Virus record (IMG/VR): IMGVR_UViG_3300042691_016826 | Span: 1-30,284 of that record | Strand: one strand, 5' to 3' | DNA from: a virus | DNA: 30,284 nt | In this document: positions 171 through 4,992 of the stretch, piece by piece | Position numbering within the stretch: position 1 is the stretch's first letter | Layout: every line of letters starts with the position of its first letter | Translations under genes and position numbers: made by a program | Notes under the pieces: generated by a model | The model's database searches: none | What the model was told of the DNA's origin: nothing | The model's input: the letters and a program-made list of their open reading frames with translations, nothing else

Positions 171-1040
171 TTATTTTGCCTCAAACCAATCCCGGCCTTC
201 AGCCCAGCCTACCCGTACCTGAACCGTCCAGCCGAGGTCCTCATTTAAAGACTTCTCGGCATCCTGCATTAAAACTTTAGCTTCTTTTAGGCGGTCGGTC
301 GGGCACTCGAACACAATCTCGTCATGGATAACCGTAATAAAGCGACACCATGGCGCTAATGCGAAAAACTTCTCACATAGTACGTGCATTATCCCCGAGA
401 CCGACGACTGAATAAAGTAGTTCAGGCACTTGTAGTCCGCGTCCGGGACTAGCCGATAACCGAATTGGTTGACGAGGTACCCCTGCCGCTTGAACAGGGC
501 TTGAAGCCGTTCCCCTAGTACCTTCACGTCCTTAAACAGGGTCCAGTAGGCGGTAAAGAATTCCTTGGCGGTCTTATAAGGTAGGGCGTGGCCAGAGTTG
601 CGGGCCTGCGCTACTAGCTTCTTAGGGCCCATGGAGTAGCTTAGGCCGAGGGCGAGTATCTTATGTAACTGGCGTTCCTTCTTAAGTAACTTCTTTGTGA
701 AAAACTCCTCGTCCTCAAGCCATTTCTCGGCAAACGTAAGCCCCCCATACCGCTCATTAAAGGCCTGCCGCATGGTATCCCGTCCGATGGGGGATACGGA
801 CATAGTGGTGAGATAGATATCACCGATCTTAAGTACCCCCTGAGGGGTATAGTACGGGGCCTTACCTACCATGCCGAACGTGGCATCATAGTAATTCTGG
901 TCTGTTGAGTAATGGGCGGTGCAGGTAGGTTCGCCTGACCCTAGGTCGGCAGAGACTACGGTCATACCGGGCTCGGGACCTATGCAACGCATAAGCCCCT
1001 CGTCACGCCTAGCAAGCCCCTGTACGTTAAGTCTCGCCAT
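171..1040 (-). CDS. Family A DNA polymerase, C-terminal half (palm/fingers) of a split enzyme
   Basis: This is the polymerising half of a Pol I-type DNA polymerase, 289 residues. Motif A is VVSADLGSGEP with catalytic Asp32 and Glu37. Motif B (O-helix) is RQLHKILALGLSYSMG with Arg123, Lys127 and Tyr135. Motif C is VIHDE with His239, Asp240 and Glu241. The exonuclease and thumb regions are absent; they are encoded separately at 3369-4622. The protein starts at MARLNVQGLAR, which corresponds to the LNLQN-type element that normally follows TGR(F/L)S in intact enzymes, so only two proteins together make a full polymerase. Leu131 stands at the place of E. coli Phe762. The ATG at 1040 is preceded by AGAGGTGGAGG and overlaps the end of the PAPS-reductase-like gene by 14 bases, which suggests coupled translation. 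Family assignment is firm; assembly of the two halves into one enzyme is inferred. Confidence 0.93.
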   Translation of the reverse strand: MARLNVQGLARRDEGLMRCIGPEPGMTVVSADLGSGEPTCTAHYSTDQNYYDATFGMVGKAPYYTPQGVLKIGDIYLTTMSVSPIGRDTMRQAFNERYGGLTFAEKWLEDEEFFTKKLLKKERQLHKILALGLSYSMGPKKLVAQARNSGHALPYKTAKEFFTAYWTLFKDVKVLGERLQALFKRQGYLVNQFGYRLVPDADYKCLNYFIQSSVSGIMHVLCEKFFALAPWCRFITVIHDEIVFECPTDRLKEAKVLMQDAEKSLNEDLGWTVQVRVGWAEGRDWFEAK

Positions 1041-2244
1041 CCTCCACCTCTTGCAGGCGCTTCTTTCTTTTCTTAATTTGCAGGTACTTGCCGTAGGCTT
1101 CGCTCTTAGGTTGAGACATGCCTAGACCCTTACACCAGTAGTCATTTCTAAGCAGCGTGCGACATATCCGCCGCCATGAGGGGGCAAAGTGAATGTTTTC
1201 TACGTCTCGATTTACCTCGTCGGGGATTGTAGAGTAGCCTCGTTTATTCCACCCTCCGATAAACCGCCTGATGCGCGCAGCGTAGTGCTCCGCCGTCTTA
1301 CGGGGCAGGCTCTTGAGCATTACCTTAGAATACTGCTCCCAAGTTAGGTGGTCCGGCTTGGTTATATACCCATCTCCATTAATGTTACCGTATTCCTGGG
1401 AGTATACCGCGAAGGAATTAGCCCCAATGACCCGCCCTATTAGCTTAGACCAGGTATCAGCCTCGAGGATACTGTAAAGCCATAGGCCTCGCCGCTGGGT
1501 GTCACCGTACGGCTGACAAAGGCGCTGATGTTTTACCGGTACCCCCGCCATCTGCATCTTATCATATACCTTGTTGTGCGGCTTGTCGGGATACACCGAG
1601 TGATACTTCCAAATATCGGAGGCCTTCCAGTCGTATATGGGGTAGGAGTTGTAATTGTCCCGGGACACCATAGTAGACCAGGACTTACCGTCTAGGGTGC
1701 CTGTCTTATTGAATACCGCAATGGTCTTATATCGGTTCAGAGACTCGTCGGCCCTAATACCCACAAACGCACAGGATCGCTCGCCTTTACCATACCACGC
1801 CCCGAATAGCGGTACGAACTCTTCAAACTCCATTCTAGGCTGATAAAAGTCATACTGGGTAAGGTCTGCCGCTCGCGTGGGTTTTGAGCGCACCCATTGC
1901 GCCTCTTTAGTTGCCTCCCAGCACACCCATTGAGGCTCAAATACAGACGTGGCGTTACGCAACATAAGCTCCGCGCATACCCAATGTAGCTCGATGTGAT
2001 CCGCATACATATCACACAAGACTTCCAGATTAGTAACCGTGTCGCGGTACTGTGCTTCCAGGTCGATAATGAGAACGCCGACCTTACGCCCCCGTTTAAT
2101 GGCCTCGTCCATTACAAGGTGCATCATTACCGTGCTGTCTTTACCGCCGGACAGCGACACGTAGGGGCGCGGCACTAGGTCGAACGTCTTAGAGATACGC
2201 TGTCTCGCGGCCTCTAGGACCGAGATAGGAAGGGTCTTAATCAT
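1027..2244 (-). CDS. PAPS reductase-like PP-loop protein (IbrA/DUF3440-like)
   Basis: A 405-residue protein of the adenine nucleotide alpha-hydrolase (PP-loop) superfamily. The ATP-pyrophosphatase loop LSGGKDS is at residues 31-37, and a second conserved stretch, FVGIRADESLNRY, is at about 160-172, followed by PIYDWKASDIWKYH. True PAPS reductases reduce activated sulfate. Phage and plasmid members of this longer type usually occur beside a ParB-like gene, as here (2254-3372), and their reaction is unknown. AAGGAG lies 6 bases before the ATG, directly behind the ParB-like stop codon. The gene sits between the two halves of the DNA polymerase and overlaps the second half by 14 bases. Superfamily is clear from the loop; substrate and role (DNA or nucleotide sulfur chemistry, host metabolism or regulation) are open. 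Confidence 0.88.
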   Translation of the reverse strand: MIKTLPISVLEAARQRISKTFDLVPRPYVSLSGGKDSTVMMHLVMDEAIKRGRKVGVLIIDLEAQYRDTVTNLEVLCDMYADHIELHWVCAELMLRNATSVFEPQWVCWEATKEAQWVRSKPTRAADLTQYDFYQPRMEFEEFVPLFGAWYGKGERSCAFVGIRADESLNRYKTIAVFNKTGTLDGKSWSTMVSRDNYNSYPIYDWKASDIWKYHSVYPDKPHNKVYDKMQMAGVPVKHQRLCQPYGDTQRRGLWLYSILEADTWSKLIGRVIGANSFAVYSQEYGNINGDGYITKPDHLTWEQYSKVMLKSLPRKTAEHYAARIRRFIGGWNKRGYSTIPDEVNRDVENIHFAPSWRRICRTLLRNDYWCKGLGMSQPKSEAYGKYLQIKKRKKRLQEVEDGET

Positions 2245-2253
2245 ATCGACTCC

Positions 2254-3372
2254 TTAAAATAGGTCGCCGTCTCGATGGCTACGCAAAGCCGCATCCATTG
2301 CTACATTAGGCATACCTCGCCCGGTCAGCCAGGAGTTTAGGTGATCCAATGCTACTTGGTTTGCGGCGGCCTGCTGCGCTTCGGTTAATGTCATGAACCC
2401 CCCTCGAAACGTGGAAGGTAGGCCTCGGGCAGCGCAGGCGGCAGCCTGGCCTATCCAGGCGATACGGTTTAGGGAGGCGTTAGTCAGGTTATGCTCACAG
2501 GAATTAGGCCATTCCTCAAACACCTTACGTATACCGGCAGCGAAGGCCTCTGAATCGCTAAGGAATACCGCGTACTCTTGTTCACACTCCGCCTTAGACT
2601 TACCTTTAACGGTGGTAGCAAAGAAGCCTGCGTTTACCGCCTCCCACTTGTCCACGGTATGAAATACTCGGTCTTTATCTCCTGTGTTCTGGGTAATGGC
2701 GTCGAAGTCTGCTGAGAAGTCTAGCTCCGAATCCGAGGACGTCGTATCGCTCTCCCACGCCTGGCTAAACTCGGTGTCGGAGAACAGACCCGACAAGCCG
2801 GTGATCTGGCAAAGGCGGAGCACTTCGTCCTCCTCCATACCTAGCTCTCGGCAGATACGGGGGGTTTTCCAGTTGCGGGCCTTTAGCTCGAGGACAATCT
2901 CGGACATCGCGTCCACTGAATGCTTACCTCGAGCGCGATTGTGTCGAATGGTGGAGGCCACGCGACTATCTTTGCCGGTCTTCTCAGTATTGATTAGCGT
3001 AAGCGGTAGGTATCCATGAATACGGGCCGATATGTCCTTGCACTCTTTACCTACTCTGTGGCGGTGAAACCCGTCCACAATCTCATACCCCCCGTCAACC
3101 GCCCACGCGACGATAGGCTGGGTATACCCGTCCTCCTCGATGGATACCTCGAGCAATTGCATCTCGGGCGGGGCGACGCTGTTGGGGTTATAGTCGTTAC
3201 CCTTTACAGATTCTTTCGGCACCCATACAACGCAATCGACCGGCTCTTTCTGAAAAGGCGAGTACTCATGTATCTTTTTGCGAAGGGCGTTAATCACCTC
3301 CACACGCTCTGCTACCGGTATCCCTACCAGCTTCTCGAATTCCTGTAGAACCCTAGATAGATTGAAGCTCAT
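2254..3372 (-). CDS. ParB/Srx-fold nuclease-like protein (IbrB-like)
   Basis: A 372-residue protein with a ParB N-terminal-type domain at about residues 55-115: VKGNDYNPN, then SIEEDGYTQPIVAW, then DGFHRHRVGKE, which matches the family's GERRxRA-like nucleotide-binding box. Residues 142-150 (IRHNRARGK) continue the pattern seen in IbrB-like proteins, and a helix-turn-helix-like stretch follows at about 153-195. The C-terminal 170 residues are not recognised. ParB-fold proteins bind or hydrolyse CTP or ATP, and some nick DNA; which applies here cannot be read from sequence. The ATG overlaps the polymerase N-part stop as ATGA and is preceded by AGGAGG. The pairing with the PAPS-reductase-like gene directly downstream is typical of IbrB/IbrA couples; the location inside a split polymerase is not. 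Confidence 0.85.
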   Translation of the reverse strand: MSFNLSRVLQEFEKLVGIPVAERVEVINALRKKIHEYSPFQKEPVDCVVWVPKESVKGNDYNPNSVAPPEMQLLEVSIEEDGYTQPIVAWAVDGGYEIVDGFHRHRVGKECKDISARIHGYLPLTLINTEKTGKDSRVASTIRHNRARGKHSVDAMSEIVLELKARNWKTPRICRELGMEEDEVLRLCQITGLSGLFSDTEFSQAWESDTTSSDSELDFSADFDAITQNTGDKDRVFHTVDKWEAVNAGFFATTVKGKSKAECEQEYAVFLSDSEAFAAGIRKVFEEWPNSCEHNLTNASLNRIAWIGQAAACAARGLPSTFRGGFMTLTEAQQAAANQVALDHLNSWLTGRGMPNVAMDAALRSHRDGDLF

Positions 3373-4622
3373 GCCCGTCCTCCTGCAAAGCGGCCCGTAG
3401 CGGTACCGCAGGCTTTAAGGTCCACATGCCATCTGCCGTCGTGCGCGCTAAGTCCCAGTAAAGAATCGGCCTGCTGTAATACTAGCAGCCGTTTGCGCCT
3501 CTCTACCAATATCTCACCCCCCTCCCCGTATCCCGGTAAGTGTGCGGACTTGAACGAGGGGCTAGGCTGAAACTCCTTAAGCTCGGGATTCTTCTCCCGC
3601 TTAGCTCGGCTGGTTTTACTTTCCTCGGTCCAAAATCGAGGCTGTATTCCTAGCGTATCGACAAATAGCGCCCGCAATTGCTTACCTGAGCCTATATTGA
3701 ACCGAGCTATATTCGGGTCATCGACCAACTGCTTGCGGCGCCCCTGCCTGCCCTTCTCCGTCTTAAGGGCGTCTACGAATGCGTCCGCCATCCTACCTTC
3801 TATATCGGCTAGCTCGGCAACAAACTTAAGCCGAAAGGCCGCCTCAATGTCCGCGATCTCTTGCGCTACCTTAGCTCGATACGCCTCTAGGCGGGTGCGG
3901 TCTACCTTAACCCCACGCCCCTTGGCTTCTGCGATACGCATAGCCGAGGCCCGGTAAAGTGTGTGGTCTAGCTCCCATTCATATCCTGCCGCGACAAACT
4001 CCCCCAGTAGGCGGTCCTTGAGAGCAAGCGTAACTATCGCGTCCGCTACGTTATATCGCTCCATGACGTCGGCAGGTAATCGGTGTAGGTTTACCCCCTC
4101 CTGCCCCGCCTTTACCCCTAGGGAGCGTAGGTAGGCGTAAGCCTCGTCCTTATGCCCCTGAAGCTCTGCAGGCAGCCAGCGGGAGGCGCAAGCGGTTAGA
4201 GATAGGCCGGTGCGGTACTCTAGGTCCTCGCCCGACTCAGCCGCGTCAAGCATGTCCTCGTAGGACACCGCCTCCCGAGCGTATCGCTGCGCCTCCTTAC
4301 CGCCGTTATCCGCTACCTGGGTTAAACGCATAGTATCGAATTGGATGCAGCCCTCAAGACCGGGGAACCGGTAGAGGGTGCATCCGTATTCAAAGGGGAG
4401 GTTATGAACTACGACCGGAACGCCGTCCTTGGCAATCCTGTCGAGAGTCTTTTTCAATGCCGCTTCGCCGACCACGTACCTTGTCTTTAGCGTCCCGTCC
4501 TCGCCCTTCCAGGCAAATGCTGCCGAGGTAACGCGAAAGTCCGGGCGATAGTACTCAAGGGAGGGCTCCCCCGATAGGAGGGCCGTCTCATAGTCCATGG
4601 CGATAACGGCGGGCTTAAACAT
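3369..4622 (-). CDS. Family A DNA polymerase, N-terminal half (3'-5' exonuclease and thumb) of a split enzyme
   Basis: A 417-residue protein. The proofreading domain comes first: ExoI is AMDYET (Asp10, Glu12), ExoII is VVHNLPFEYG (Asn74, with Glu78 where most enzymes have Asp), and ExoIII is YNVAD (Tyr190, Asp194). A thumb-like region leads to GTATGRFAGGRA, where the protein ends. TGRFAGG is the conserved element that in intact enzymes runs straight into the LNLQN segment, which here begins the separate gene at 171-1040. I place the start at ATG 4622, preceded by TGAGGGG and one base after the HAD gene's stop. An in-frame ATG at 4688 would add 22 residues lying entirely within that neighbour. 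The two halves sum to about 706 residues, a normal length for phage exonuclease-polymerases. Confidence 0.92.
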   Translation of the reverse strand: MFKPAVIAMDYETALLSGEPSLEYYRPDFRVTSAAFAWKGEDGTLKTRYVVGEAALKKTLDRIAKDGVPVVVHNLPFEYGCTLYRFPGLEGCIQFDTMRLTQVADNGGKEAQRYAREAVSYEDMLDAAESGEDLEYRTGLSLTACASRWLPAELQGHKDEAYAYLRSLGVKAGQEGVNLHRLPADVMERYNVADAIVTLALKDRLLGEFVAAGYEWELDHTLYRASAMRIAEAKGRGVKVDRTRLEAYRAKVAQEIADIEAAFRLKFVAELADIEGRMADAFVDALKTEKGRQGRRKQLVDDPNIARFNIGSGKQLRALFVDTLGIQPRFWTEESKTSRAKREKNPELKEFQPSPSFKSAHLPGYGEGGEILVERRKRLLVLQQADSLLGLSAHDGRWHVDLKACGTATGRFAGGRA

Positions 4623-4623
4623 A

Positions 4624-4992
4624 TTACCCCTCAGGCCAATTATGCTTAGCGTCAATCCAGCCGTCTTCGCGGGCGTCAATACCTGCATACGGCAGGTCGT
4701 CTAGGTACCACGTAGGCTTAGTAAGGAAGTGCTTGGACATGTGTGTTAGATATAGTGCCGCGCAGACCTGGTATGCCCAAGCCCCTCCTCCGGCAGACCA
4801 AAACACAATGTCCATACCGCAATTGGCGTTAAATCGCTCGACCAGGTAGATATTCTTGTCCAGCCTACGGAATTTACGGCCCCCGATCTCAACTGCATCC
4901 GAGCCCGTATAGGCTGCCTCCTCCTCCCGACTAGTGAAGGGGTAAATCAGGGTCTTATCGATGTCGACGTAAAGTGCCGTGCCGCTGCTCAT
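4624..4992 (-). CDS. HAD-superfamily phosphatase
   Basis: A compact 122-residue haloacid dehalogenase-type hydrolase. Motif I is YVDIDKTLI with nucleophile Asp10 and general acid Asp12; motif II is VFWSAGG with Ser66; a lysine near 92 can serve as motif III; motif IV is YLDDLPY with Asp98 and Asp99. The set needed for Mg-dependent phosphate-ester hydrolysis is complete, with little room for a cap domain. The start overlaps the stop of the Sak4-like gene as ATGA, behind AAGGAG. Among replication genes a role on nucleotides or DNA ends is plausible, but the substrate cannot be inferred. Confidence 0.8.
   Translation of the reverse strand: MSSGTALYVDIDKTLIYPFTSREEEAAYTGSDAVEIGGRKFRRLDKNIYLVERFNANCGMDIVFWSAGGGAWAYQVCAALYLTHMSKHFLTKPTWYLDDLPYAGIDAREDGWIDAKHNWPEG

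Follow-up and report, generated by a model that had tools for sequence, protein, structure and literature searches.

Can a phage divide its family A DNA polymerase between two genes, with unrelated genes in between, and still make a functional enzyme of it? The question is raised by a 30,284-base IMG/VR virus contig, classed as linear and analyzed here over its whole length (the window). On its minus strand, polN, a ParB-like gene, a PAPS-reductase-like gene, and polC lie head to tail (Table 1), preceded by a gene for an ATPase-like protein and by a small ORF. The window polymerase is probably a two-subunit ("genes-in-pieces") family A enzyme, whose gene was broken once in the ancestor of its clade and whose junction later tolerated insertions.

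The two polymerase genes and their junction

In profile searches, polN matched columns 671-977 of the DNA polymerase family phrog_17 (5.7e-34) and polC matched columns 998-1232 (4.2e-27). PF00476 was found on polC at 200-380 (2.9e-15) and on polN at 28-121, the latter weakly and under the curated cut-off. In a MAFFT alignment with intact polymerases, the break fell within motif 2, after TGRxxGG and before LNxQ, and the two halves were complementary: every polymerase segment was present, and none occurred twice. The proposal of the first-pass annotation, a single break point in one ancestral gene with nothing lost, was thereby borne out, and polN and polC represent one ancestral coding region as two complementary ORFs, the arrangement known as genes in pieces. 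Klenow Arg668 and Asn675 touch the primer-template, and the break falls between the positions that we take to be their equivalents.

Table 1. Features of the split polymerase locus in the window
Feature	Position	Strand	Description
polN	3369..4622	-	3'-5' exonuclease, thumb, and first palm segment of family A DNA polymerase; ends ...TATGRFAGGRA-stop inside motif 2
AGGAGG Shine-Dalgarno	3379..3384	-	Spelled by the motif 2 Gly-Gly codons; 6 nt before the ParB ATG; read directly
ParB-like gene	2254..3372	-	First cassette gene in the gap
PAPS-reductase/DUF3440 (IbrA-like) gene	1027..2244	-	Second cassette gene in the gap
AAGAGG Shine-Dalgarno	1047..1052	-	Supplied by the PAPS gene at its 3' end; lies 6 nt ahead of the ATG of polC; read directly
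polC	171..1040	-	Rest of family A polymerase (palm/fingers: end of motif 2, motifs A, B, and C); starts MARLNVQG

Among 11 divergent polymerases, the invariant residues of polN included Asp10, Glu12, Tyr190, Asp194, and Arg411, and those of polC included Asp32, Glu37, Arg123, Lys127, Asn207, Gln211, His239, Asp240, and Glu241; polC Tyr135 was kept within the four-member clade described below. Motif A was assigned to Asp32, motif B to Arg123/Lys127/Leu131/Tyr135, and motif C to His239-Asp240-Glu241, so that polN and polC together carry the family A residues of motifs A, B, and C and of motif 2. The claim that all key residues had been kept was correct for every residue on its list (Asp10/Glu12/Asp194, Asp32, Arg123, Lys127, Tyr135, Asp240, and Glu241) but not for the ExoII aspartate, which it had not listed. 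At this residue (Asp424 in Klenow), the window has Glu78, two relatives (G001 and G002) have Glu, and the third (G003) has Asp. The exonuclease set of the window is therefore not fully canonical, and the exonuclease may be altered. The equivalent of Klenow position 762 is Leu131 in all four clade members; Leu762-type polymerases are described as slower, more accurate, and found mostly in temperate phages (PMC6302109). Motifs A and B of the window polC are also separated by an insertion of about 50 residues relative to most of the intact polymerases aligned.

A plausible Shine-Dalgarno sequence, read from the sequence, precedes each of the four window genes. The polN and ParB-like genes overlap in ATGA, the two cassette genes are spaced by 9 nt, and the PAPS gene overlaps polC by 14 nt; an alternative in-frame ATG for polN is located at 4688. 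In the relative G003, the equivalent motif 2 Gly-Gly codons (GGAGGG) sit ahead of the polC start. Since these codons spell a Shine-Dalgarno sequence, the break is placed where conserved sequence already supplies a ribosome-binding site, and they probably serve in ribosome binding at the break.

Relatives with the same break and the content of the gap

Three other IMG/VR contigs (G001, G002, and G003) share the polymerase break at exactly the point seen in the window. The junctions read GGRA-stop/MARLN in the window, GGN-stop/MAKLN in G002, GGRD-stop/MVKLN in G003, and GGAGERG-stop/(GTG)QEKEAKIN in G001. Initial scans of IMG/VR with polN and primase profiles returned the L003 contig (G003) alone, and a profile scan built on the four members again gave only these three relatives. 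Among cultured phages, polN had no useful match and polC had distant intact relatives only, mainly mycobacteriophage Pol I at ~26-30%, while polC and primase profiles yielded nothing useful in GTDB genomes. In the tree, the window and its relatives formed one clade (100/100), in which the window grouped with G002 (98/97) and G003 with G001 (99/99). G002 (L032/L035) is the nearest relative, with identities to the window of 60% for polC and 45% for polN.

The gap differs among the four. In G002, it holds a gene for a 162-aa HNH_3/AP2 homing-type endonuclease (PF13392 8.6e-6, phrog_99 1.2e-28; L032:2357-2845), the stop codon of which overlaps the polC start; this gene is AT-rich relative to its own contig, which suggests a more recent arrival. 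The gaps of G003 and G001 are without a gene: in G003 (L003), the polN stop codon is followed by a single c and the ATG of polC, and in G001 (L031/L034), the polC ORF begins at a GTG within the end of polN. In both, polC is offset to the +1 frame and the Gly-Gly codons are followed by a 13-nt spacer (L003:6985-7003, L034:2357-2386); these features may be the scar of an excision or act as a conserved signal for coupling.

ParB and PAPS genes were absent from all three relatives checked. The first-pass annotation had implied that the ParB/PAPS pair created the split; the cassette was set aside in this role, because G001 and G003 are split without an insert and G002 has the HNH gene instead. Given a break shared by the four-member clade and a cassette present in the window only, the split is most simply regarded as common to the clade and older than the cassette, and the ParB/PAPS pair most likely entered the gap later or replaced an earlier occupant. 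An ancestral split followed by changes in gap content is the simplest reading of these comparisons. The annotation had also recommended a search of relatives for unsplit versions and for other genes in the gap. The latter were found in the HNH gene of G002, but an unsplit close relative was not found among IMG/VR contigs and cultured phages, and the direction of change is for this reason only inferred.

The cassette itself has many relatives. The ParB-like protein (phrog_2159 8.6e-65; PF02195 E 1.7e-4, under the gathering cut-off) consists of an IbrB-like N-terminal part (~1-216), with 46% identity to IbrB of PhiR5_2, and a C-terminal domain (~230-363). The two parts are encoded separately in some phages, e.g., in Microcystis phage Mwe-JY13 (L020:6888-7971), and joined in one gene in the window. 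The PAPS protein (PF11922 2.8e-29, PF01507 5.3e-13) is 41% identical to IbrA, 60% to the protein of Mwe-JY13, and 76% to that of L041. As in IbrA/IbrB of Escherichia coli prophages (41% and 46% identity, respectively), the PAPS-reductase/DUF3440 and ParB genes of the window are adjacent; unlike in those prophages, ParB comes first, has an extra C-terminal domain, and lies with its partner inside a polymerase. PAPS relatives are encoded in 491 IMG/VR stretches, with ParB directly upstream in nearly all of the best 80. Judged from these matches, the window pair is a common phage gene pair and kin of IbrB/IbrA.

The cassette might be more than a passenger and be functionally tied to the polymerase, e.g., through DNA modification at the fork or control of subunit dosage. 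The closest cassette (L041:2639-7123) immediately precedes, and overlaps the start of, an intact family A polymerase of 716 aa that belongs to another branch. The overlaps in the window are those of coupled genes, and the GC3 of the cassette (0.61-0.62) matches that of the operon (0.63-0.64 in the polymerase halves). However, a polymerase was nearby in only 1 of the best 80 cassettes from the 491 stretches, within flanks of at most ~5 kb, and the cassette is missing from G001 to G003, so that such a tie appears unlikely.

Alternatives to a two-subunit enzyme

The +1 position of polC and its 13-nt spacer in G003 and G001 would also suit programmed frameshifting, by which the gap-free relatives would join their two ORFs; the ancestral gene would then have relied on a frameshift, with a true split arising only in the branch of the window and G002. 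The G003 junction (GGAGGG-AGA-GAC-TGA-C) is similar in layout to the frameshift site of prfB. Against this, the codons before the stop (GAC and GGC) re-pair poorly in the +1 frame, and the in-frame starts (ATG in G003, GTG in G001) follow an SD-like sequence. The mechanism is inapplicable to G002 and to the window, where joining by a frameshift is impossible. We consider frameshifting in the gap-free relatives improbable, if a little less so than the alternatives that follow.

The position of the break inside motif 2 and the replacement of the ExoII aspartate by glutamate could alternatively indicate a polymerase inactivated by insertion, with the halves as decaying pseudogenes in a phage that uses the host polymerase, and phages that depend on a host polymerase do exist. 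Such decay is very unlikely in view of a split common to lineages of ~45-60% protein identity with invariant catalytic residues and of intact ORFs with ribosome-binding sequences. Between the window and G002, pN was well under pS in both halves (0.41 versus 0.69 for polN, 0.29 versus 0.87 for polC, with synonymous sites near or at saturation), and these values indicate that purifying selection acts on both. Together with the break common to three other contigs, this selection excludes chance as the source of the split. Good folds were predicted for both halves. The AlphaFold2 model of polC (pLDDT 85.6, pTM 0.82) was of low confidence in residues 1-10 and that of polN (pLDDT 83.8) mainly in residues 107-136 and 402-417; in these single-chain models, polN 402-417 and polC 1-10 are the motif 2 ends left by the break. 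In Foldseek searches, both models matched Pol I structures: polC retrieved the Taq, Klenow, and Bst polymerases, and polN, with PDB matches to Pol I of both phages and bacteria, retrieved the polymerases of phages G20c, phiVC8, and T7. An intact second polymerase elsewhere in the genome, named by the first-pass annotation as grounds against its own reading, did not turn up: no further family A, B, or C polymerase was found in the four contigs, although one could lie outside the window, since the contigs are classed as linear, possibly incomplete, and without a completeness estimate.

Least credible is a single chain produced by splicing out the insert, for although phage DNA polymerase genes commonly carry introns, and one was suggested by the authors for the split of phage MEP401 (PMC10580990), intron and intein were both rejected, in line with the first-pass annotation: Rfam at gathering gave zero matches in the four source contigs and chance-level matches only in the gaps, intein families were absent from the window polN and polC ORFs (P0001, P0002), the gap ORFs overlap both polN and polC and leave no obvious space for a ribozyme, and the two genes in the 2.3-kb gap have many relatives elsewhere. 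The results support the earlier claim that a functional enzyme would require two chains.

Known split enzymes and a proposed order of events

Split phage enzymes have been reported previously, e.g., for gp43 of Aeromonas phages 25 and 44RR, which is encoded as 43A and 43B (Petrov 2010, as summarized in the review PMC2988022); by the account given there, gp43A/43B of phage 25 co-purify and show polymerase activity. As in the window and its relatives, a phage replicative polymerase is encoded by two genes, and the occupant of the break (homing endonuclease or other sequence) differs between phages. In contrast to the window, gp43 belongs to family B, and its breaks are described as holding a seg endonuclease or untranslated sequence and no accessory gene pair. 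In phage Aeh1, NrdA is split by mobE, and its two chains are still active according to the same review (Friedrich 2007, in PMC2988022). This case resembles G002 in having an HNH endonuclease gene within an essential enzyme gene; it differs from the window in that the enzyme is a ribonucleotide reductase and its activity was shown experimentally. A mobile endonuclease at the break is typical of such systems but not required, as 44RR is without one; it is absent in the window and present in the sister G002.

A split PolA has also been described in the OM43 phages MEP401 and MEP402 (PMC10580990). Like the window polymerase, it is a family A enzyme divided between two ORFs, one for the exonuclease and N-terminal part and one for the C-terminal part; a small ORF separates them, and most of the group is split. 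Both phages lie outside the clade of the window, their gap ORF encodes a small unknown protein, and the MEP401 break is located ~20 residues further downstream, just before motif A (SRYGE-stop/MILNAD; L025:6111-8221). With it, two distinct break points are known from this region of the enzyme.

For the two-subunit reading, the following order of events is proposed. A single break inside motif 2, separating TGRxxGG from LNxQ, would have divided the polymerase gene in the ancestor of the phage clade, and both pieces would have acquired a start and a stop of their own. As products of one translationally coupled operon, polN and polC would associate and rebuild motif 2 across the subunit interface; from the sequences and models, we infer that the two chains assemble and are active. 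The junction would then have become a tolerated insertion point, taken by the HNH gene in G002, by ParB/PAPS in the window, and by nothing in G001 and G003. With less confidence, the original break may be ascribed to a homing endonuclease, which G001 and G003 may either never have had or have lost; the same uncertainty over endonuclease and break is stated for phages 25 and 44RR (PMC2988022). A more specific and tentative version holds that a homing endonuclease split the polymerase and that repair at this site later let ParB/PAPS replace it, which would have turned an essential gene into a stable slot for accessory genes.

Split phage polymerases and the insertion of homing endonucleases are already known, as is a split family A polymerase elsewhere (MEP401, PMC10580990). 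New are the location of the break inside motif 2, the variety of cargo that this one site holds in different phages, and the presence of an accessory cassette among it. If the chains assemble, they would form a family A polymerase of two subunits, naturally divided within motif 2, and a ready-made split polymerase for structural work and split-enzyme tools. With four relatives in three gap states, it can be asked how a broken essential gene stabilizes and then serves as an insertion site. Genes in pieces are a rare arrangement that was known before, and the locus adds a new setting for it in a group of uncultured phages.
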